Below, piece by piece: positions 20,256 through 54,774 of a stretch of 64,000 nucleotides of DNA (position 1 is the first letter of the stretch; every line of letters begins with the position of its first letter). The notes beneath the pieces were generated by a model. It had not been told where the DNA came from. It searched no databases and was given only the letters and a program-made list of their open reading frames with translations. Made by a program: the position numbers and the translations under genes. This DNA is from Euzebya pacifica (GTDB taxonomy: Bacteria > Actinomycetota > Nitriliruptoria > Euzebyales > Euzebyaceae), in NCBI RefSeq assembly GCF_003344865.1, contig NZ_CP031166.1, positions 1-64,000 on the forward strand, in the 5' to 3' direction.

Positions 20256-22796
20256 TCAGTCGCCGATGGCTGCTTCTGCGGTATCAGGAGCGGTGGCCGG
20301 CATCGTTTCGCCGTGGCTGAGGGCCTCAGTGATGAAGGTGTGGGCGTCGGCCGGCTTGCCGAGCCCGTAGCCCTGCAGCTTGTCGGCACCCAAGCGGGTG
20401 AGGAGGCGGGCGTCGCGCATGGACTCGACCCCTTCGGCGACGACCCGCATGTCGAGTGCATGGCCGAGGCCGATGAGTGCGTCAAGGACAGCCACGACCC
20501 GCGGGGATCCATGGGCACCGATGAGCATCTGCCGGTCGATCTTGAGCTCGTCGATGTCGAACCGGGCAAGGCGGCCGAGCGAGGAGTGCCCCTCGCCGAC
20601 GTCGTCGATGGCGATGCGGCAACCGAGCTCGTGAAGGGTCTGCAGGGTCTCAGCGGTCGCTTCGGGGTCGACCATCGCCGACTGCTCGGTGATCTCGATG
20701 GTCAGCCACGACGGGTCGATGTCGTGGGCTTCGCAGGCACCCGTGACGAGATCGGGAAGGGTGCCGGAGGCCAGGTCGACGGCGGTGACGTTGAGGTTGA
20801 CGTGCACGGCGGCGTCGTGTTCGTCGCGCCATCGGGCGATGTCGGCACAGACGGCTTGCAGCATGGCGCCCGTGAGGAAGGAATCGAGGCCCATTGAGAC
20901 GAGCTTGGGCAGCCAGGCACCGGGTGGAAGCGTGCCGTCGGTGGGGTGGTTCCAGCGGGCCAGGGCTTCGGCGCCGACCATGGCTGGTTCGGGCCCCGCA
21001 GACATGATCGGCTGGTACCACGGGACGATCTCGCCGTTGCCGAGAGCGTGGCGGAGCTGGTCGGCGAGGCGGAGGTCCTTGGCGGTGCCGAGCGGCATCT
21101 TGTCGGTGAAGGACCGGACAGGGCCCGTGCCGTGATCGAGTGCGGTTTCGGCGCGGACGAGGAGATCAGCGACGCCGATCTGGACGCCGCGGTCGGTGCG
21201 GGCGGCTGTCCCGACGACAATGGAGACGGGCAGGGGAAGGTCATCGACCCGGTAGGTGCCCGACAGGCTGCGGCCGAGCGTTTCGGCGCTGGGGCCGGTG
21301 TCGTCGATGCAGACGGCGAAGCAGTCGCGGGCGACGTGTCCCTGGGGTTGGCCGATGGCCAGCTCGGTGAGGTGCTGGCCGACCTGCCGGATGATGTCGT
21401 CCGCGGCGTAGGGCCCGAGGGCCTGCTCGATCTCGCGCAGGTCGGCGATCCGCAGGACGTGGACGGCGCGGGCGGTCGCGATGCCGTGGGTCTGGTCGAG
21501 GAACGCGGGACGGGATGGCAGCCCCGAGATGTTGTCGGCGGTCACCGCTTCGGTGTGGCGTGCCAGCTTGTCAGCGGTGATGGCCCAGCCGAGCATCGGC
21601 AGGGCCAGGCTCAGCACGGCCACCGGATGGTAGGCCGCGAGGATGCAGACAACGGTGGCGGGGGCAGCAGCAACGACGAGGGCCATCGGGTGCAGTGAGG
21701 GCCGCAGCAGCGTGGGCGACCACGGTTCGCCGGTAGCGAACCGGATGAGGTGGTGCACCACGACCGCGGTGACGTAGTCGATGAGGACCGATCCGACGGT
21801 GACGGCAGCCCACATGGCGGGGGTCGCCGGGTCGGTTCCTATGGTGGTCAGGATGACCACGGCGACGCCGACCGGTGCGAGGGTGTTGAGGGCAGCGTTG
21901 CAGACAGTCTTGAAGACGTGCAGTCGTGCGGGACCGCTGGTGGGGCCGGTGCCGATGGTCCGGTGGACGACCTCACCGATGATCATGGCGGCAAGGACCA
22001 TCGGGGGGCCGCCGGCGGGGGAGGTGACGGCGGCGAGGACGAAGAAGGCATTGGTCGGGCTCTGCCGGCGTGGGCCAGCGATGGATGCCACGTGGGCGGC
22101 CAGGCCGATGGTGGTCAGGGCACCCGCTGTGACGAGCGACCCGGTCGGCATGGTTGAGGTGACCATCAGCAGGGCCAAGGTGCCGGTGACGGTGAGGAGG
22201 CCGATGACGCCAATGGCGGTGGTGCCCGGCCGCGACGGCAGCCCGGTGACGGCAACGGCTGCACGGCGGAGACGGGAGCCGCCTTGGGAGGCGGGCTGGC
22301 CGGCCCTGCGGATCAGGAGGAACAGCCCAATGACGAGGGCAATGTCGCCGATGGAGAACACGTTGGACAGCGGCCAGCTGGCGGGGGTGGCGAAGATGTC
22401 GCCGAGCCACCACAGGGTGGCGTTTTCGGTGACGGCAGAGTTGGAGAATCCGGTCTCGGGGGAGAGCCCTGCCATGTTGGCGGCGGCGGCGGTCGCCGGC
22501 ATGACGCCGCCGTTGGCGGCGATGACGAGGCCGTTGCTCGCAACTCCCAGAGCGATGACCGGCAGTCCCGTGACGTGCCGGTTGGCCCACGCCCACGTCA
22601 GCGCTGCTGCGTAGGACAGCAAGTGCACGAACCGGGCCGGGGTGCCGATGAGCACCTCGATGGCGATCGCCTGGACGAGGAACACCATGATGATGAAGTG
22701 GCTGTGGCGGATCGGCAGGCTGGCGGACGCCGACAGGCGTCCGCCGGTGAGCAGTCCTGCGGAGATGGCCAGGGCAGTGGCGACGAGCAGAATCAT
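20256..22796 (-). CDS. Membrane protein with degenerate GGDEF and intact EAL domain
   Basis: 846 residues. The N-terminus (ILLVATALAISAGLLTGGRL) matches the DUF5317 type membrane domain, followed by more membrane helices (to residue about 400). In the GGDEF domain the signature is RDCFA (490-494), so diguanylate cyclase activity should be lost. The EAL domain keeps GAEALARW (EAL 610-612), N in NLNVTAVDL, E in EITEQS, DD in IAIDDVGEGHSSL, K in ELKIDRQM and E in VVAEGVES, so cyclic-di-GMP phosphodiesterase activity is plausible. ATG 22796 overlaps the stop of the 22793 gene (ATGA). Together they form a complementary pair. Confidence 0.9.
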   Translation of the reverse strand: MILLVATALAISAGLLTGGRLSASASLPIRHSHFIIMVFLVQAIAIEVLIGTPARFVHLLSYAAALTWAWANRHVTGLPVIALGVASNGLVIAANGGVMPATAAAANMAGLSPETGFSNSAVTENATLWWLGDIFATPASWPLSNVFSIGDIALVIGLFLLIRRAGQPASQGGSRLRRAAVAVTGLPSRPGTTAIGVIGLLTVTGTLALLMVTSTMPTGSLVTAGALTTIGLAAHVASIAGPRRQSPTNAFFVLAAVTSPAGGPPMVLAAMIIGEVVHRTIGTGPTSGPARLHVFKTVCNAALNTLAPVGVAVVILTTIGTDPATPAMWAAVTVGSVLIDYVTAVVVHHLIRFATGEPWSPTLLRPSLHPMALVVAAAPATVVCILAAYHPVAVLSLALPMLGWAITADKLARHTEAVTADNISGLPSRPAFLDQTHGIATARAVHVLRIADLREIEQALGPYAADDIIRQVGQHLTELAIGQPQGHVARDCFAVCIDDTGPSAETLGRSLSGTYRVDDLPLPVSIVVGTAARTDRGVQIGVADLLVRAETALDHGTGPVRSFTDKMPLGTAKDLRLADQLRHALGNGEIVPWYQPIMSAGPEPAMVGAEALARWNHPTDGTLPPGAWLPKLVSMGLDSFLTGAMLQAVCADIARWRDEHDAAVHVNLNVTAVDLASGTLPDLVTGACEAHDIDPSWLTIEITEQSAMVDPEATAETLQTLHELGCRIAIDDVGEGHSSLGRLARFDIDELKIDRQMLIGAHGSPRVVAVLDALIGLGHALDMRVVAEGVESMRDARLLTRLGADKLQGYGLGKPADAHTFITEALSHGETMPATAPDTAEAAIGD

Positions 22797-24820
22797 GGGA
22801 CGTGGATCTCCTTGACCGCGGCGGTTGCCGGGGGGGTCAACGGCTGGTCCAGGCTGAGGCGCCCGTCGAGCCATGCCAACGTTTCGGGGAAGGACAGGGG
22901 TTTGGCGAGGCCGAACCCTTGGGCGCGTTCGATGCCGGCGCCTGCGGCTGCGTGGAGGTGTTCGGCCGTTTCGACACCCTCGACGATGAGGGGCAGCCCG
23001 AGCTCACGGCCGAACGCTCCGAGGGTCCGCAGGACCGCACGGCCGTAGTTGCTGTGGGTGGCGTCGGTCAGCAATGACTGGTCGACCTTGAGGGCCGTCA
23101 GTTGCATGGTGCGGATGCGGACCATGACTGAGTCGTTGCCGAACCCGTCGAGTGCGACGCCGACACCCGCTTCGGTGAGCCGGGCGACGGTACGGCGGGC
23201 ATCGTCGGGTTGGAACCCGCTGCTGTCGGTGATTTCCAGGGTCAGCCACTTGCTGGGGAGCTGGTGGTCGTGCAGGGCGGCAAGGACGTCGTCGGCGAAG
23301 GTGGGGTCGGCGAGGTTGCGGATGGAGATGTTGACGTGCACGCCGACCCGGTGGCCTCGGTCGTGCATCTGTCTGGTCGCCTTGCAGGCGTTGCGGAGCA
23401 CCCAGCGGGTCAACGGGGTGAGCAGCGCCGACGCCTCGACCAGCGGGATGAGGACGTTGGGGGCGATGGGGCCGTCGTCGGGGTGGTCCCAGCGGAGGAG
23501 GGCTTCCACCGCCAGCACGGCCTGGGTGCGGACATCCAGGATCGGCTGGAAGTGCAGGGCGAGGTTGTCGTTGGCGATCGCGTCGGCAAGGTCACGCAAC
23601 CGGCGGGTGTCGGCTCCGAGTTCAGCCTCTTCGATGCGGTGACCGGTGCGCTTGGAGGCGTACATGGCGGCGTCTGCAGCCCGGAGCAGCGCCCCGACAC
23701 CCTCGTCTTCGGTTGTCACCTGGGCGTAGCCCATCGATGCTTCGACCTCGACGGTGACGTCGTTGACGATCAGTTGGACAGGGAAGGCATCCGCGAAGTG
23801 CTGCACCTGTGGTCGGGCGTCGGTGGTGGTGTCGGGCAGCAGCACGGCGAACTCGTCACCGCCGAGTCGTGCGACCGTGGCGCCGTGGGGCGCGCGAGCC
23901 TGCAACTGTTCGGCGACTCGTTGCAGGACGATGTCGCCCGTGGCGTGCCCGAGGGTGTCGTTGATCGGCTTGAACCCGTCGAGGTCGAGGACGACGACGG
24001 TGGGGCGCAGCCCATGCCTGATGCCACGGGCGAGTACCTGTTCGGCGTCGGCGGTGAACCGGTCGCGGTTGGCAAGGCCCGTGAGGGGATCATGGTGGGC
24101 ACGGTCCTCAGCAGCGGCGAGGTGGCGGCCGGACCGGATCACCGTGCCGGTGAGGACCATGGCGAAGGGGAGCAGCAGCGGGGAGACCGCTGCGGCTCCA
24201 ACGAGGACTGGGGCCTGCACCAGGAGCAGGCCATCGGTGCCGAACGCGAGGAGAAAGTCGCGTCGCATCGTTGTGACGGCACCATCACCGGTGGCCAGGC
24301 CAATGGCGATGTTAAGGGGAATGGCGGCAACGGCATACATGCTGAGCCCGGCGAGGACGATGCCGAGGACTTGTTCGGCGCTGACGTCGAGGCTGGCAAC
24401 GGCATGTTGCGCGTCGAAGGTCCGGAGCGCGGCGGCGGCAGCAGCAGTGGACAGTGCGGCGGTGGCGGCGTTGAACGCCACCTTGTGACGATCGATGCGA
24501 CGCGAGAGGTCACCGATGATCGATGCGGCGGCAACGATCGGGACGGCGGCCAACCCACTGAGGGACATGGTCAACGCGAAGGCGTAGGCCAGCGACACGG
24601 TGACGAAGCTGGCTTCGCGTCCCCGGATCCACCTGACCGGCTGGATCTCCGCGACGAGCAGCGCCCCCGCGAAGGTGCCGACGGCGATCCAGTTGGGACT
24701 CAGCGTCCCGTTGAGCAACTCGGCGCCGCCGATCCCCGTGGCGGCGACGCCGAGGAGGATGACGGCGGCGAGGTAGGCCCGGAGGCCAACGGAGTACGCA
24801 GGCGAGTTGCCTGCGGTCAT
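22793..24820 (-). CDS. Membrane protein with intact GGDEF and degenerate EAL domain
   Basis: 675 residues, ATG 24820. Residues 10-265 have about eight membrane helices (MASE-like). GGDEF is intact (RLGGDEFAVL, residues 320-324), so cyclic-di-GMP synthesis is plausible. The EAL domain keeps AVEALLRW (439-441), but the DDFGTG motif reads ALDGFGNDS: the second Asp needed for metal binding is lost, so hydrolysis is doubtful. Its stop overlaps the start of the next gene, whose cyclase is dead and EAL intact. A 29-residue peptide gene ends 13 bases upstream. Confidence 0.9.
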   Translation of the reverse strand: MTAGNSPAYSVGLRAYLAAVILLGVAATGIGGAELLNGTLSPNWIAVGTFAGALLVAEIQPVRWIRGREASFVTVSLAYAFALTMSLSGLAAVPIVAAASIIGDLSRRIDRHKVAFNAATAALSTAAAAAALRTFDAQHAVASLDVSAEQVLGIVLAGLSMYAVAAIPLNIAIGLATGDGAVTTMRRDFLLAFGTDGLLLVQAPVLVGAAAVSPLLLPFAMVLTGTVIRSGRHLAAAEDRAHHDPLTGLANRDRFTADAEQVLARGIRHGLRPTVVVLDLDGFKPINDTLGHATGDIVLQRVAEQLQARAPHGATVARLGGDEFAVLLPDTTTDARPQVQHFADAFPVQLIVNDVTVEVEASMGYAQVTTEDEGVGALLRAADAAMYASKRTGHRIEEAELGADTRRLRDLADAIANDNLALHFQPILDVRTQAVLAVEALLRWDHPDDGPIAPNVLIPLVEASALLTPLTRWVLRNACKATRQMHDRGHRVGVHVNISIRNLADPTFADDVLAALHDHQLPSKWLTLEITDSSGFQPDDARRTVARLTEAGVGVALDGFGNDSVMVRIRTMQLTALKVDQSLLTDATHSNYGRAVLRTLGAFGRELGLPLIVEGVETAEHLHAAAGAGIERAQGFGLAKPLSFPETLAWLDGRLSLDQPLTPPATAAVKEIHVP

Positions 24821-24833
24821 GTCCGCTGGTCGC

Positions 24834-24923
24834 CTAGCCCCACTTCTGCGGGGCACCGGTGGCAAGGATGACGGCCACCAAGGCGGCAAGGTTCATGAGG
24901 GCTTTGCGTGTACGGGGACTCAT
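24834..24923 (-). CDS. 29-residue peptide gene heading the GGDEF-EAL operon
   Basis: ATG 24923 is preceded by AGGAG with seven-base spacing, the best ribosome site in the area. The product begins with the basic MSPRTRKALM, has a hydrophobic core NLAALVAVILATGA and ends PQKWG. This is the layout of a small exported signal peptide or a single-pass membrane peptide. The TAG at 24834-24836 is followed 13 bases later by the start of the 24820 gene, so co-translation is likely. A short leader, a secreted signal sensed by the membrane partner, or a regulatory membrane peptide are all possible. Confidence 0.65.
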   Translation of the reverse strand: MSPRTRKALMNLAALVAVILATGAPQKWG

Positions 24924-25255
24924 CGGATTGCTCCTGATCGTGGGTGGACTGCTGCGACGGCAGACAGAGACCGCCACCGCCACCACACAACTATCGGCAC
25001 GTCCGGAGAGAAACCTTAGAACTAGTTGCGCTGCAACGTCTTCGTGGCCATCAGGGGCCATGCGGACCTACGCATCGGGCCGCCCGACCACCCTGACCGA
25101 ACGGCGGTCACCCGTCCGGAATCCTTCGCGGGGCCACCGGGGCGGTGGGGTCCACGACGTTGTCGTCGGCTCGTGTCACCCTAAAGGGGCACCCGGCAGA
25201 TGCCGAGGTACTAGTCACCCGTACGGCTTGCCCACGCCCCGAAGGCCCGTTTCCC
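24924..25255. other. Divergent control region of the cyclic-di-GMP block
   Basis: 332 bases between the minus-strand operon and the plus-strand 25256 gene, with lower GC than the surroundings (AACCTTAGAACTAGTTGCGC at 25011-25030). A small stem CGGC-AGAT-GCCG lies at 25195-25206 just before CTAGTCACCC. I could not fit this to the known cyclic-di-GMP riboswitch consensus. It should hold both promoters. Confidence 0.45.
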
Positions 25256-27397
25256 TTGTCCACGTCTGCTGCACGGCCAGACACCGATGGACGCAGCGAC
25301 GCTGCGGTCATCACGCCTGCAGCCGATGCGGACACGACCGCCAGCGACGCTGCGGCGGACGGCCCGGACCACGTGATGCGGTACGTCTGGGCAGTCGTCG
25401 CCATGGCAGTGATCGCAGCCGTGGGCGTTCTGGTCCACTCCTCGACGCATGGCCTTTGGGGCAGTGACGATTCCATCCTTGCGCTGGTGCTGGTCGGGGC
25501 CATGCTGTGGGTGGAGATTCAGCCGCTGGATCTGTTGAAGAGCCGCGACTCGAGTGTGCACACGCTGTCGGCCGCCTACATCGTGGCACTGCTGCTCGTC
25601 GTGCCCGGCTACACCGCGGCCCTGCTCGTTGCGGCAGCGTCCCTTGCTGCGGACCTGCTGAAGACCGACCCGATCAAGTCGGTGTTCAACGCCGCGATGC
25701 TGCTGCTCTCCTCGATTGCGGCGCTTGCCGTTTTTCGTGCAGTCGACGCCCAGATGCTTGGTGCAGGTGCCGACGCCGATCCGGTGCTGGTCGTCGGGCT
25801 CATCGGGGCGTCGTGGGTGTTCAACATCGTCAACGTCGTCCTGATGTCGGGGCTCCTGGCGATCCTCCAGGAAATGTCGTTCGTGGCGGTGTTCCGCCGT
25901 GACGTGTTCGAGACGTGGACCACCGACTGGATGCTGGTGCTGCTCGGCCCCGTCATGGTCGTCATCGGCCGCACCCAGCCGTTGCTGCTGCCCATGGCGA
26001 TGCTGCTCACCTGGGTGGTTCACCACTCTGCCAAGGTTGCCCTTGCCCGCGAACTCGACGCCATCCAGGACCCCCTGACGGGCCTGCTGAACCGACGGGC
26101 TTTCGACGAGCAGGCCGAAGCCATCATCGAGCGGGCCGGCCGGACCAGCGGCCGGGTGGCGCTGTACCTGATCGACCTCAACGACTTCAAGACCATCAAC
26201 GACACACTCGGCCACCAGATCGGCGACGAGGTCCTGGTCCAGATCGCCAAGCGACTCACCGACGCCACCCCGGAGGGCGGCCTGGTCGCCCGGCTCGGTG
26301 GCGACGAGTTCGCCGTGCTGCTGCCATCAGTCGCCGGGCTCGACGCCGCAGGAGACCAAGCCGGAGTATTGGCTGACGCCATGGCCGGTGACCTGCCCGT
26401 CACCGATCCGGCCGTGGAGACCGTCACCACAAGCGGATCGGTGGGCGTGGCCGTCACCGGACCGAACTGGCGGACCCTCGGTGAGGCCTTCCGAGCCGCC
26501 GACGCCGCCATGTACACCGCCAAGCGGTCCGCAGACCGATGGACCATGGCCGACCCCGACCTTGCCGACCCCACCCACCACCTCGAGTCGCTCCGGGAGG
26601 CCATCAACAGCCCGGAGATGTCGTTGGTGTACCAGCCGATGATCGACACCCGAACGGGACTGGTCATGGGGTTCGAGGCGCTAGCCCGCTGGGACAGCCC
26701 GTTGCATGGCCCCATCGCACCATCGGAGTTCGTCCGCGACATCGAAGCCGCCGGGTCGCTCGTCGGCCCCTTCACCCGCCGAGTCCTCCACGATGCCCTG
26801 TCGGCCCAACCCCAGCTCGAAGCCGAGAACTCCGGCCCCATCATCGTCCATGTCAACGTGTCGCGGCGCAGCCTCACCGACCCAGCGTTCGCCAGCATGG
26901 TCCTGCAAGCACTCACACAGCACAACGTCCCGGCTGACCGTCTCGCCATCGAGATCACCGAAACCGCCGCGATCAAGGAAACCGAGGCCAGCGTCCGCGT
27001 CCTGGGTGAACTCCGCCACCTCGGCGTCCGGATCGCGCTGGACGACTTCGGGACAGGCAACTCCTCCCTTGCGGTGCTGCAGCACCTGCCACTGACGAGC
27101 CTGAAGGTCGACCGACAGTTCGTCTCACGCATCAGCGATGCCAACGGCGAAGCGTTGCTGGCCACCGTCGTGGCCTTCGGACGGCTCCACCAGTTGACGG
27201 TGGTGGCCGAAGGCGTTGAGGACCGGGCGATCATCAGCACCCTCGAACGGCTCGGGTTCGACCAGGCACAAGGACACGGCATATGCCGGCCCCAGGACCT
27301 CAAGGCATCCGTGGCCTGGCTGTCCGGGCGCGCATCCATCGACCCAACCGGTGCCGTGACCGTCCACGAAATAGATGTCGACCAGCACAACAACTGA
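25256..27397 (+). CDS. Membrane GGDEF-EAL protein with both active sites intact
   Basis: 713 residues from a TTG at 25256 with GAAGG upstream. An in-frame GTG at 25145 is an alternative, but codons before 25256 are poor, and ATG 25376 is another. Residues 40-270 carry about seven membrane helices. GGDEF is intact (RLGGDEFAVL, 348-352), as is EAL (GFEALARW, 474-476), with N in HVNVSRRSL, E in EITETAA, DD in IALDDFGTGNSSL, K in LKVDRQF and E in VVAEGVED. It could both make and break cyclic-di-GMP. It is divergent from the coupled pair at 20256-24820. Confidence 0.9.
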   Translation: MSTSAARPDTDGRSDAAVITPAADADTTASDAAADGPDHVMRYVWAVVAMAVIAAVGVLVHSSTHGLWGSDDSILALVLVGAMLWVEIQPLDLLKSRDSSVHTLSAAYIVALLLVVPGYTAALLVAAASLAADLLKTDPIKSVFNAAMLLLSSIAALAVFRAVDAQMLGAGADADPVLVVGLIGASWVFNIVNVVLMSGLLAILQEMSFVAVFRRDVFETWTTDWMLVLLGPVMVVIGRTQPLLLPMAMLLTWVVHHSAKVALARELDAIQDPLTGLLNRRAFDEQAEAIIERAGRTSGRVALYLIDLNDFKTINDTLGHQIGDEVLVQIAKRLTDATPEGGLVARLGGDEFAVLLPSVAGLDAAGDQAGVLADAMAGDLPVTDPAVETVTTSGSVGVAVTGPNWRTLGEAFRAADAAMYTAKRSADRWTMADPDLADPTHHLESLREAINSPEMSLVYQPMIDTRTGLVMGFEALARWDSPLHGPIAPSEFVRDIEAAGSLVGPFTRRVLHDALSAQPQLEAENSGPIIVHVNVSRRSLTDPAFASMVLQALTQHNVPADRLAIEITETAAIKETEASVRVLGELRHLGVRIALDDFGTGNSSLAVLQHLPLTSLKVDRQFVSRISDANGEALLATVVAFGRLHQLTVVAEGVEDRAIISTLERLGFDQAQGHGICRPQDLKASVAWLSGRASIDPTGAVTVHEIDVDQHNN

Positions 27398-27425: not shown

Positions 27426-28325
27426 ATGACCGACGACACACCCCTGGCCGACCGCGACTGGCTGCATCGCGCCTACGTCGTCAAGGGCCACACCCAAGCC
27501 GCGATCGCCGAACAGGTTGGCGTGTCCCCACCCACGGTGCGCCGATGGCTCAAGGTCCACGGCATCCCAGTCCGCAAGCACAAGGGCCGCCCAAGGGCCC
27601 CAATGCCCGACCCGAAGGTGCTCCAACGGGCGGTCGAGGACGGACGGACCGCAGCCGACATCGCAGCCGAGCACGGCGTGGCCAAGACCACCGTCATCCG
27701 CTGGCTGCGTGACTCCGGAGTCCGCAAACCGCGTCCGCGTCCCACCCGCCCCGACAACGAATGGCTCCTGGCAGCCCACCGTGACGGACGCACCGCCGAG
27801 GAGCTCGCCGCCGAACTCGGGGCGTCGCTCCACACAACCAACAAGTGGCTGCGCGACGCCGGGGTGGCACCAAGCATCCCGCTGCCCCGCCCGAATGACG
27901 ACTGGTTGGAAGCCGCAGTCATCGATGACGAACTGACGAACTCCGAGATCGCCCGTCGGCTCGGAGTGTCGGAACGCACCGTCCGTCGCTGGATCGACAA
28001 CGCCGGCATCCAACGGCCCCAACCACCGTCCCGGCCCGACGCCGACTGGCTCCACCAGCAGCTCGTGCAGGCCGGCCGGACCCGCAAGGACGTCGCCGCC
28101 GAACTCGGCGTGCACCCAGTAACCATCAGCGCATGGCTTGACGACGCAGGTGTCGACGCACCAGCAAGGCCCGAGCCGCCCGATCGCGAATGGCTGCACC
28201 AGGCCAGGGTCGTGAAGCAGATGACCATCAAGGAGATCGCCGAGGAACTGGGAGCCTCCACCAGTGCGGTCCACCGATGGCTGCACCGGGCCGAGATCCT
28301 CAACGGACACCCCGCAGACGGCTAA
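27426..28325 (+). CDS. Protein built of six tandem helix-turn-helix repeats
   Basis: 299 residues, ATG 27426, 28 bases after the 25256 gene. Six units of 46-51 residues start near residues 9, 61, 108, 155, 203 and 251. Each has the pattern D-x-x-W/V-L-x(3)-A...G/x-T-x(3)-I/V/L-A-x-E/R-L/H-G-V/A-S-x(2)-T-V-x-R/K-W-L/I-x(2)-A/H/S-G-[IV], followed by a basic Pro-rich linker (for example RPRPTRP, IPLPRP, PPSRP). This is a sigma-70-region-4/homeodomain-like helix-turn-helix repeated with flexible linkers, and nothing else is present. It most likely wraps along DNA over many base pairs. No nuclease or recombinase domain is attached. Confidence 0.88.
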   Translation: MTDDTPLADRDWLHRAYVVKGHTQAAIAEQVGVSPPTVRRWLKVHGIPVRKHKGRPRAPMPDPKVLQRAVEDGRTAADIAAEHGVAKTTVIRWLRDSGVRKPRPRPTRPDNEWLLAAHRDGRTAEELAAELGASLHTTNKWLRDAGVAPSIPLPRPNDDWLEAAVIDDELTNSEIARRLGVSERTVRRWIDNAGIQRPQPPSRPDADWLHQQLVQAGRTRKDVAAELGVHPVTISAWLDDAGVDAPARPEPPDREWLHQARVVKQMTIKEIAEELGASTSAVHRWLHRAEILNGHPADG

Positions 28326-30589: not shown

Positions 30590-31474
30590 ATGCCGATCCT
30601 GACCCTCGCCCACGTCCTCGACGCCGTCGGCATCCCCGTCACCGACGACCGCACCGCAGTGCTGCTGCGCCACACCGGCGACACCCCCGTGCTCACCGCC
30701 GCCCTGCCGACCCTCGCCGCCGAGGACCAGCAGGCCTACGACGCCTTCAACGCCTTCCACATCGAAGGGGAGGCCAACAAGATCGTCGCCCGCACCTGGG
30801 CCGTCGCCGGTGTCGCCCACGGCGCCGGCGTGCTCCTCACCGGGCTGTACCGGGTCGGGCCCAGCCGGCCCATCACCGACGCCGAATGGCGCGCCGTGCC
30901 CGGCAACGACCGGCTCGCCGCCCTCGGGGCCGAAGGGCCAGCGGACATGGCCGGCCGGCCCACCACATGGATCGAGCTCGCCCGCGACGACCGGCTCGAC
31001 GAGTGGGCCGGCCGGCTCGCGCTCTCCTGGACCGGACGGCGCGGCTACATCCGGGTGGTCCGCCCTGGGCTGTTCGACATCCAGGCCGTCCACCAGGAGT
31101 CCAAGCTGGTGCCGCCGGTCCCTGGGGTGGAAGAACTCGTCGTCGAGCACGCCGGCCTGGCCGCCATGCCCCACTCATGGTGGCAACGCCTCGAGCAGTG
31201 GCGCGGCATCTACTACATCCACGACCGAACAACCGGCCGCGGCTACGTCGGCGCCGCCTACGGCGAGCTCAACCTCGCCCAACGATGGCGCCACTACGCC
31301 CAGACCGGCCACGGCGGCAACGTCGACCTCACCGGCCTGGACCCCACCGGCTTCGTCTTCTCCATCCTCCAACTCGTTGCCCCCACCGCCGACCCCGCGG
31401 ACGTGCAGGCCCTCGAAACCTCATGGAAAGCCCGGCTGTCCACCCGCCGACCCCACGGCCTCAACGCCAACTGA
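30590..31474 (+). CDS. GIY-YIG endonuclease-domain protein
   Basis: 294 residues, ATG 30590. The C-terminal 95 residues carry a GIY-YIG domain: WRGIYYIHDRTTGRGYVGAA with the GIY..(x10)..YVG spacing, then a catalytic-type Arg in QRWRHYAQTGHGGN, and later an acidic residue in ALETSW. Such domains cut DNA in UvrC, homing and restriction enzymes. The N-terminal 190 residues form a separate domain with PGNDRLAALGAEGPAD and VVRPGLFDIQAVHQE, which is also the whole of the frameshifted 12410 gene. The domain is probably for DNA recognition, though that is inference. Confidence 0.85.
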   Translation: MPILTLAHVLDAVGIPVTDDRTAVLLRHTGDTPVLTAALPTLAAEDQQAYDAFNAFHIEGEANKIVARTWAVAGVAHGAGVLLTGLYRVGPSRPITDAEWRAVPGNDRLAALGAEGPADMAGRPTTWIELARDDRLDEWAGRLALSWTGRRGYIRVVRPGLFDIQAVHQESKLVPPVPGVEELVVEHAGLAAMPHSWWQRLEQWRGIYYIHDRTTGRGYVGAAYGELNLAQRWRHYAQTGHGGNVDLTGLDPTGFVFSILQLVAPTADPADVQALETSWKARLSTRRPHGLNAN

Positions 31475-45479: not shown

Positions 45480-45920
45480 ATGTCACCGACCCTCACCGTC
45501 AACAAGCTCGACGAAGGCCTCCCCACCCCCCGCTACGCCCGGCCGGGCGACGCCGGACTGGACCTCCACGCCACCGGCGACCACATCATCCACCCGGGCG
45601 GCGGCCGAGCCGTCATCGGCACAGGGATCGCCATCGCCCTACCCGACGGGCACGCCGGCATGGTGTGCCCCCGCTCCGGGATGGCCGCCCGGCACGGCAT
45701 CACCGTCACCAACGCACCGGGGATCATCGACGCCGGCTACCGCGGCGAGATCGAGGTCATCCTCACCAACACCGATCCCGACCGACCCCACCACATCCGC
45801 AGGGGCGACCGGATCGCCCAACTCCTCATCGTTCCCGTCGCCACGCCCACCATCGTCCTCGCTGACAGCCTCGACACCACCGAACGCGGCACCGGTGGGC
45901 TCGGCTCCACCGGCACGTGA
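45480..45920 (+). CDS. dut: dUTP diphosphatase (dUTPase)
   Basis: 146 residues, the typical trimeric dUTPase length. All five motifs are present in order: DAGLDL (1), CPRSGMAARHG (2), NAPGIIDAGYRGEI with catalytic Asp and Tyr (3), RRGDRIAQLL (4) and the flexible C-terminal RGTGGLGSTG (5). It hydrolyses dUTP to dUMP, keeping uracil out of DNA and feeding dTMP synthesis. The GTGA overlap with the next gene and the nearby ssb suit a replication-support operon. Common on phages and large plasmids. Confidence 0.97.
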   Translation: MSPTLTVNKLDEGLPTPRYARPGDAGLDLHATGDHIIHPGGGRAVIGTGIAIALPDGHAGMVCPRSGMAARHGITVTNAPGIIDAGYRGEIEVILTNTDPDRPHHIRRGDRIAQLLIVPVATPTIVLADSLDTTERGTGGLGSTGT

Positions 45921-46471: not shown

Positions 46472-46918
46472 ATGGCCAACGAGCAGAACACGATCACCGT
46501 GATCGGGAACCTCACCAAGGACCCCGACCTGCGCTACACCCAGGGCGGCACCGCCGTCGCGAACCTGTCCGTCGCGGTCAACCGCCGGGTCCGCAACAAG
46601 GACACCAACGAGTGGGAGGACAAGCTCGACGGCTACTTCGACGTCAACATCTGGCGTGACCACGCCGAGAACGTCGCCGAGTCCCTCAACAAGGGCGACC
46701 GGGTCGTCGTCATCGGTCGGCTGACCAAGCGGTCCTGGGAGGACAAGGACGGCCAGACCCGCTGGCAGACCGAGATCGAGGCCGACGAGATCTGCCCGTC
46801 GCTGCGGTGGGCCAAGGCGTCGGTGGAGAAGGTCTCCGGTGGCGGCAAGCGGCAGCCGGCGATGTCCGGCGGTGGCCAGGCCCCGCCGCCCGTTGCGGAT
46901 GATGAGGTCCCGTTCTAG
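46472..46918 (+). CDS. ssb: Single-stranded DNA-binding protein
   Basis: 148 residues, ATG 46472 after AAGGAG. OB fold: NTITVIGNLTKDPDLRYTQG, VANLSVAVNRRV, YFDVNIWRDHAENVAESLNKGDRVVVIG. The C-terminus is a short Gly/Pro linker and the acidic tip ADDEVPF, which recruits partner proteins. Shorter than chromosomal actinobacterial SSB, which supports a plasmid or phage origin. The arm GDRVVVIGRLTKRSW is intact. Hairpin downstream at 46991. Confidence 0.97.
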   Translation: MANEQNTITVIGNLTKDPDLRYTQGGTAVANLSVAVNRRVRNKDTNEWEDKLDGYFDVNIWRDHAENVAESLNKGDRVVVIGRLTKRSWEDKDGQTRWQTEIEADEICPSLRWAKASVEKVSGGGKRQPAMSGGGQAPPPVADDEVPF

Positions 46919-53529: not shown

Positions 53530-54774
53530 GTGCCCCACCCCACCCACCACCTCATCGCTGACGCCTACACCGGCAACGGGGCCACCCTGGACGAAACCGC
53601 CGCCTTCGCCGGCACCGACCCCACCGGGGTCCGATCGGCGTTGTTCGACCGCGGCCATCCCCAACGCGTCGGCTCCGACGACCCGTTGTCCTACCAGTGG
53701 CTCCTGCCGATGCGGGCCCGTCGTCGCGTCACCGTCCGCGAGCTGGCCAGGCTCCGACACACCTCCCACGCTGTCGTCCGGACCCAACTGCTCCGCCACC
53801 GCCTCGACGCCCACGACCCCCACGCCCCGCCCATCGACCGGGCCGATCTGGCCGCCCTCCTCAACGCCGGTGCCACACCGCAGCAGGCCAGCGAACACCT
53901 GCCGGGACGTCCACCGGCGGACCGGGTCCGCGAGTGGGCCGATCGCTACCGGCTGCCCGACCCGGCCCCGGTGATGCTGGACCCCGACGGCGTCCTCGAT
54001 GCCGTCATCGGTGGAGCCGACCTGGTCAGCGTCATGCACGCCACCCGGCTCGGCCCCGCCGAACTCCTCCACAGGACCGACGACGACCTCCTCGACGAGG
54101 CGATCGCCCGCCGCACCGACCTCATCGACGCCGTCTACGGCGGCCCCGCACGGATCAACCAGCAGCTCCGGCACCGCGAGATCGACGAGCTCAAGCCCTA
54201 CGGGCCCGCTGGGAAGGACGCCATCGCCCAAGCAGGACCCCTCGGGATCACCGCCGCCGCCATCACCGTCCGACTGTTCGACTGCCGGTCCGGGGCACCG
54301 CCCAGGCACGCCGGCATCCCCCGCCGGCTCACCCGCCAGGACCCCACCGAGATCCTCGACGTCGACGACGTCCGCGACCTCCTCGCCACCGGCTGGCGAA
54401 CCGTCGACATCGCCGCCCTCCACGCCACCGACCCCGACGCGACCAGACGCTGGGTCGACCGGCACGGCCTCAGTGAACAGACACCCGGACTGCGCCGCTA
54501 CACCGACGTCCTCACCCCCGAGTTCCTCGCCGAACGGTTCGCCGACCCCACCGCCAGCTATGCCTCCGTCGCAGCCGAAGTCGGCGCGGCCCGCAAGTCC
54601 GTCATCCGCTACGCCCGCCGCCACGGCATCACACCCACCACCTGGGCTGACGTCCTCACCCCCCAGTTCCTCACCAGAATGGTCGACGCCGGCCTGTCCG
54701 CCACCGACATCGCCGCAAAGACCGGAGCATCCCGCTCCACCGTCGAACGGCACCTCGCCGCCCTCGACGACTGA
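53530..54774 (+). CDS. Large protein of repeated helix-turn-helix-like units
   Basis: 414 residues, GTG 53530. Several units are recognisable: VTVRELARLRHTSHAVVRTQL, the unit around GATPQQASEHL, TVDIAALHATDPDATRRWVDRHG, YASVAAEVGAARKSVIRYARRHG and LSATDIAAKTGASRSTVERHL. Each is a helix, turn and recognition helix of homeodomain type, more diverged than in the 27426 protein. Together with that protein it forms a class of multi-headed DNA binders. A repressor of the dyad regulon is one possible role, since its own promoter carries the dyad. Confidence 0.78.
   Translation: MPHPTHHLIADAYTGNGATLDETAAFAGTDPTGVRSALFDRGHPQRVGSDDPLSYQWLLPMRARRRVTVRELARLRHTSHAVVRTQLLRHRLDAHDPHAPPIDRADLAALLNAGATPQQASEHLPGRPPADRVREWADRYRLPDPAPVMLDPDGVLDAVIGGADLVSVMHATRLGPAELLHRTDDDLLDEAIARRTDLIDAVYGGPARINQQLRHREIDELKPYGPAGKDAIAQAGPLGITAAAITVRLFDCRSGAPPRHAGIPRRLTRQDPTEILDVDDVRDLLATGWRTVDIAALHATDPDATRRWVDRHGLSEQTPGLRRYTDVLTPEFLAERFADPTASYASVAAEVGAARKSVIRYARRHGITPTTWADVLTPQFLTRMVDAGLSATDIAAKTGASRSTVERHLAALDD

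Follow-up and report, generated by a model that had tools for sequence, protein, structure and literature searches.

What does a protein do that appears to be built solely of consecutive helix-turn-helix (HTH) units? The question is raised by a gene on contig C2, a 571,580-bp extrachromosomal replicon in a two-contig genome of 6.37 Mb, of which the window analysed here comprises bases 1-64000. An earlier note on this DNA described the product as six HTH repeats and nothing else, each repeat perhaps reading a different set of bases.

The array ORF is a real coding sequence (Table 1). Trained on this replicon, a codon-usage gene caller chooses exactly these boundaries, the GC content by codon position (0.74/0.51/0.81) is typical of high-GC coding DNA, and the N- and C-terminal halves of the protein align with a score of 231, the maximum in 1,000 shuffles being 74; on these grounds a spurious frame in high-GC DNA was rejected. 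With the alternative start codon, an ATG at 27375, the product would be 17 aa longer.

Table 1. Features of the array gene, its upstream neighbour and related genes (window positions, or contig C2 where indicated)
Feature	Coordinates	Strand	Details
GGDEF-EAL protein	25256..27397	+	713 aa; gene ends 28 bp before the array gene
Six-HTH array protein	27426..28325	+	299 aa; ATG at 27426, coding to 28322, stop codon ending at 28325; ORF, HTH_23, gene caller, AlphaFold2
HTH module 1 (DRDWLHRAYVVKGHTQAAIAEQVGVSPPTVRRWLKVHGI)	27450..27566	+	helix-3 charge +3
Linker 1, PVRKHKGRPRAPMP	27567..27608	+	charge +5, basic arm
HTH module 2	27609..27722	+	helix-3 charge +2
Linker 2, RKPRPRPTRP	27723..27752	+	charge +5
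HTH module 3	27753..27866	+	helix-3 charge +1
HTH module 4	27894..28010	+	helix-3 charge +1
HTH module 5	28038..28154	+	helix-3 charge -2, without Arg before Trp
HTH module 6	28182..28298	+	helix-3 charge +2; 51% identity to module 1
Second array-type protein	53530..54774	+	414 aa; about seven diverged HTH-like segments by eye; HMM scores 3-4
Paralogous array, four modules	C2:267123-268052		profile/HMM
Paralogous array, two modules	C2:270552-270863		profile/HMM
Paralogous array, three modules	C2:273963-274913		profile/HMM
Two C-terminal modules	C2:452030-452680		profile/HMM

The product is a tandem HTH_23-type array, as seen from the Pfam HTH_23 matches in six stretches (whole-protein E-value 3.3e-39) and from six predicted helix triplets; together with the half-to-half score these bear out the six repeats described previously. 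The modules start at residues 9, 62, 110, 157, 205 and 253, that is at intervals of 53, 48, 47, 48 and 48 aa, and the repeat length of 46-51 residues given in the earlier note fits all of these but the first. Pairwise identity among the six modules is 30-45%. The Trp of the proposed Trp-Leu start opens five of the six modules, module 2 opening with Val, and the R-W-L of the recognition helix is exact in three, the others having KWL, RWI and AWL. What is left outside the modules amounts to 8 aa at the N-terminus, linkers of 9-14 aa and 8 aa at the C-terminus, and the description of a protein without other content is therefore correct. The protein is only mildly basic (pI about 9.0; 44 Lys and Arg, 42 Asp and Glu).

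A single domain that buries the recognition helices, the outcome named beforehand as speaking against a modular reader, was not what structure prediction gave. AlphaFold2 with a five-sequence alignment returned 18 helices in six triplets with low-confidence linkers (mean pLDDT 80.2, pTM 0.29), and the outcome was the same when no alignment was supplied (pLDDT 79.6, pTM 0.27). Since local confidence is high and global confidence low, the six HTHs are predicted to fold as independent units joined by flexible Pro/Arg linkers, and with separate domains the recognition helices would be exposed. A PDB fold search gave no match significant at 1e-3 (best E-value 0.009, none for the whole array); among the non-significant matches are mariner transposase domains with two HTHs and 2lvs, a CRISPR repeat-binding protein. 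Against a viral structure library there were 34 matches to the array fold at E ≤ 0.001, the BcepSauron endonuclease among them, and a sequence search of solved structures with the array protein gave nothing useful.

If each module reads its own bases, the recognition helices might be expected to diverge most, as the earlier note had stated. This stands in part. Positions 1, 2 and 5 of helix 3 (P/K/L/E/P/T, P/T/H/R/V/S and R/I/N/R/S/H) are among the most variable in the fold, as are positions 2 and 9, in helix 1 and its lead-in, and position 16, in helix 2, but the linkers are the most variable segment of the repeat, and for the six canonical HTH contact positions variability does not significantly exceed that of the remaining exposed positions (Mann-Whitney p=0.19). 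For three of these positions, a subset picked after looking, the excess is significant (p=0.006). Modules 3-5 are net negative, and helix 3 of module 5 (PVTISAWLDDA) is acidic. Module 5 thus probably adds little to DNA binding, and it is possibly a spacer module. Linker 1 resembles a GRPR-type basic arm. The helix-3 charges together with the basic linkers 1 and 2 suggest that binding is probably carried mainly by modules 1, 2, 4 and 6. With an acidic helix 3 in module 5 and p=0.19 for diversification of the contact set, a separate set of bases for each repeat is plausible and not established.

The gene is not the only one of its kind on the replicon. Searches with a profile built on two adjacent modules (A1) and with a single-module HMM identified the related genes listed in Table 1, and this paralogous set was shown to be confined to the 571,580-bp replicon: on the 5.8-Mb contig there was no module match with E < 1e-5 (best E-value 4.3e-4). 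Module 1 shares 56% identity with module 4 of the C2:267-268 kb paralog, more than with its own neighbours, which argues that array modules have been exchanged or are old. The protein encoded at 53530-54774 likewise appears to contain little besides HTH-like segments, and while its sequence is unlike that of the six-module array, the same module profile matches it. The gene for the three-module array directly adjoins a DnaG-like gene (by eye). The replicon appears, also by eye, to have its own replication proteins, i.e. DNA polymerase III alpha-like, DnaG-like, DnaB-like, SSB and dUTPase-like proteins, with genes of this type at C2:187980-192254, 274914-276704 and 545635-548952 and at 46472-46918 and 45480-45920 of the window.

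The neighbours at 20-34 kb encode GGDEF/EAL proteins, a UzuA-like protein and proteins without a Pfam match. The array gene may be co-transcribed with the GGDEF-EAL gene directly upstream. Three consecutive EAL or GGDEF-EAL genes (window 20256-27397) surround a divergent region of 435 bp. The UzuA-like protein (30590-31474, plus strand), in which GIY-YIG is recognised by eye, is a full-length match to PADLOC UzuA (E-value 5.7e-49). A PADLOC 'mad1' match was rejected as a defence assignment since it reflects generic HTH similarity.

Candidate operators were looked for in the divergent region (24780-25300), downstream of the gene and upstream of the second array, and no convincing repeats were found; a replicon-wide search likewise gave no repeat family that fits a site of approximately 50 bp. 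The 12-bp palindrome GTGACATGTCAC has four copies on the replicon with at most one mismatch (window 3118 and 33041; C2:560689 and 565367), all intergenic, and was set aside as a target of the array protein as it is symmetric and looks more like the site of a dimeric protein. If the contig is circular, all its copies fall in a stretch of about 44 kb spanning the contig ends, with a ParA-like gene (554788) close by, and a partition site or an operator is possible. CRISPR-type repeats CTTCTCCCCGCGCAGGCGGGGGTGATCCC, about 19 copies, are present outside the window (C2:112.9-126.8 kb and 346.4 kb), and the adjoining ORFs look like Cas3 and Cse1 (by eye).

A search for the repeat in other genomes, the check asked for in the earlier note, revealed the module elsewhere. 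No full-length relative of the array was present in 60 related genomes (E ≤ 1e-8), and no close full-length relative was found among the genome contigs or viral contigs searched. The two-module profile has matches in 11 of 397 genomes of the phylum, its own genome included (E ≤ 1e-9), in proteins of several kinds. Specifically, one of these genomes (G105) has a TniQ protein (Pfam 2.6e-20) with the W-L module, and a genome of the same genus (G002) encodes a 1247-aa protein (L076:5338-9078, minus strand) in which eight or more HTH modules precede two tyrosine-recombinase-like regions (by eye). The module occurs with PD-(D/E)XK/VSR-like regions in G225, G127, G302 and G254 and with HNH-like regions in G314 and G254, in both cases by eye and, as for the recombinase-like regions, without Pfam support among the families listed. 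Two actinobacterial proteins of 990 and 763 aa from two genera of one family (L102:8068-11037 and L103:6614-8902, both minus strand) have at least seven or eight HTH modules that flank a nuclease-like segment, EYDGEHWHDN.

Among viruses, HRTV-4 gp40 and HCTV-5 gp111 (haloviral) have tandem modules beside an annotated HNH, scoring 35-54 bits each against the model of the array repeat, and one module of gp111 is 51% identical to array module 1. HJTV-4 gp23 has tandem modules with an HNH recognised by eye. The BcepSauron/BcepSaruman jumbo-phage endonuclease has four HTHs and is annotated as a GIY-YIG homing endonuclease in BcepSaruman. On plasmids, a TniQ-like protein of Rhodococcus jostii pRHL1 has a module with 51% identity to array module 1; the Rhodococcus proteins in unannotated records are TniQ-like by eye, and other Rhodococcus and Streptomyces plasmid matches are annotated as TniQ. 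Moreover, a plasmid of Streptomyces sp. NBC_01435 encodes a 275-aa array-only protein, the gene of which overlaps an integrase gene. In the enzymes of mobile elements and viruses, the 'D-x-x-W-L...' module recurs as a targeting part.

Taken together, we consider it likely that the array protein is a stand-alone tandem-HTH targeting module, a sequence-specific DNA binder that acts as a monomer on one long asymmetric site; DNA binding, site length and monomeric action are all inferred. The precedents for such a reading are Cbp1, the HTHs of which are placed in order on one site (PMC10883916), and the multi-HTH C-termini of TnsD-like selectors (PMC10293859). Helix 3 of each module would enter successive segments of the major groove, and the Pro/Arg linkers, of which 1 and 2 are GRPR-like, would follow the minor groove or the backbone. 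With all modules bound, a single monomer would span roughly 40-60 bp; were modules 3 and 5 not to bind, the span would be shorter. Each of the replicon's array genes (2, 3, 4, 6 and about 7 modules) would have a target site of its own. With less confidence, we suggest that the role is to regulate or mark the replicon's own DNA rather than to guide an enzyme encoded next door, and that the upstream GGDEF-EAL gene might be the nearest candidate target. Several observations count against a DNA reader: the protein is mildly basic, helix 3 of module 5 is acidic and modules 3-5 are net negative, and there is no full-length relative in the 60 genomes, no target site was found and no PDB match to the whole array is significant.

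An enzyme may nevertheless be served in trans. The array protein could select target sites, or act as an accessory factor, for a tyrosine recombinase, transposase or nuclease of a mobile element on the replicon, like the HTH arrays adjacent to integrases, for which the overlapping Streptomyces genes and the joining of an HTH array to tyrosine-recombinase-like regions in the 1247-aa protein speak, as does the separate HTH protein that transposition of the Tsy element requires (PMC10293859). We regard this as unlikely, because the sole integrase match on the replicon is at 302 kb, 274 kb from the array gene, so that an adjacent enzyme partner is not evident; moreover, the UzuA-like GIY-YIG gene is 2.3 kb downstream with other genes between, and repeat searches around the array gene gave no transposon-like ends. 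Taken with the Streptomyces array/integrase pair (L113:2725-5854), the 1247-aa protein looks like the Tsy gene set in fused form.

The fusion of the same modules to HNH or GIY-YIG in viruses raises the question of whether the array is what is left of a homing endonuclease after loss of the nuclease domain. This is highly improbable given six intact modules without a frameshift, an intact coding signal, array-only paralogs of differing module number on the replicon and array-only proteins elsewhere. The least probable alternative is a Cbp1-like protein that coats CRISPR or other replicon repeats in a chromatin-like manner, in line with a weak NCBIfam Cbp1 match, the non-significant 2lvs fold match and the CRISPR-type repeats on the replicon, but the score is far under the family threshold, the CRISPR arrays are about 85 kb from the array gene, and paralogs of several sizes suggest several targets.

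For the stand-alone targeting module, a broader proposal is that the replicon holds a set of modular HTH-array readers, with long, distinct sites fixed by the number of modules and by the helix-3 residues, a natural and perhaps recodable counterpart of zinc-finger or TALE arrays made from the ordinary bacterial HTH; we put this forward tentatively and as rather doubtful. If each module contacts its own few bp, HTH arrays would join zinc fingers and TALE-type repeats as another class of tandem-repeat DNA readers; in a recent systematic survey of DNA-binding tandem-repeat proteins, HTH is absent from the main text (PMC11417379). It would also mean that the half of a homing endonuclease or Tn7-type selector that recognises the target is able to stand alone and to multiply on a large replicon.

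How, then, does the array relate to known systems? An ordinary dimeric HTH regulator has one HTH and a dimerisation or ligand domain, whereas the array protein has six separately folding HTHs and no other domain, and in this respect the earlier note was right to set it apart. The architecture is not isolated, though, since the same module is found in tandem beside nucleases, integrases and TniQ. Cbp1 of Sulfolobales has stand-alone tandem HTHs with short linkers, the HTHs being arranged 5' to 3' on the CRISPR repeat (PMC10883916), but it has three modules instead of six and is archaeal and CRISPR-specific, and the match to its NCBIfam model (NF040595; 39.7 bits) is below the cut-off of 140. 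The TnsD/TniQ selectors of Tn7-like elements have C-terminal regions of multiple HTH domains for target-site recognition (PMC10293859); the array protein has no TniQ core, the leftover stretches being at most 14 aa, and no Tn7-like element was recognised around the gene, the neighbours at 20-34 kb being those named above. The viral HNH/GIY-YIG homing endonucleases (HCTV-5 gp111, HRTV-4 gp40, HJTV-4 gp23 and BcepSauron gp070) have the tandem module in 2-4 copies, and the haloviral ones share the D-x-x-W-L module start, but the array protein has more modules and no room for a nuclease domain. Membership in these three families was therefore rejected. The mariner transposases Mos1 and SETMAR, among the best (non-significant) PDB fold matches, have two HTHs and a basic linker; their two modules are fused to a transposase. 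No description of such a multi-gene HTH-array set was found in the open-licence PMC literature. Tandem-HTH arrays as such are already known, and what is new here is an array-only protein of six modules within a multi-gene set.
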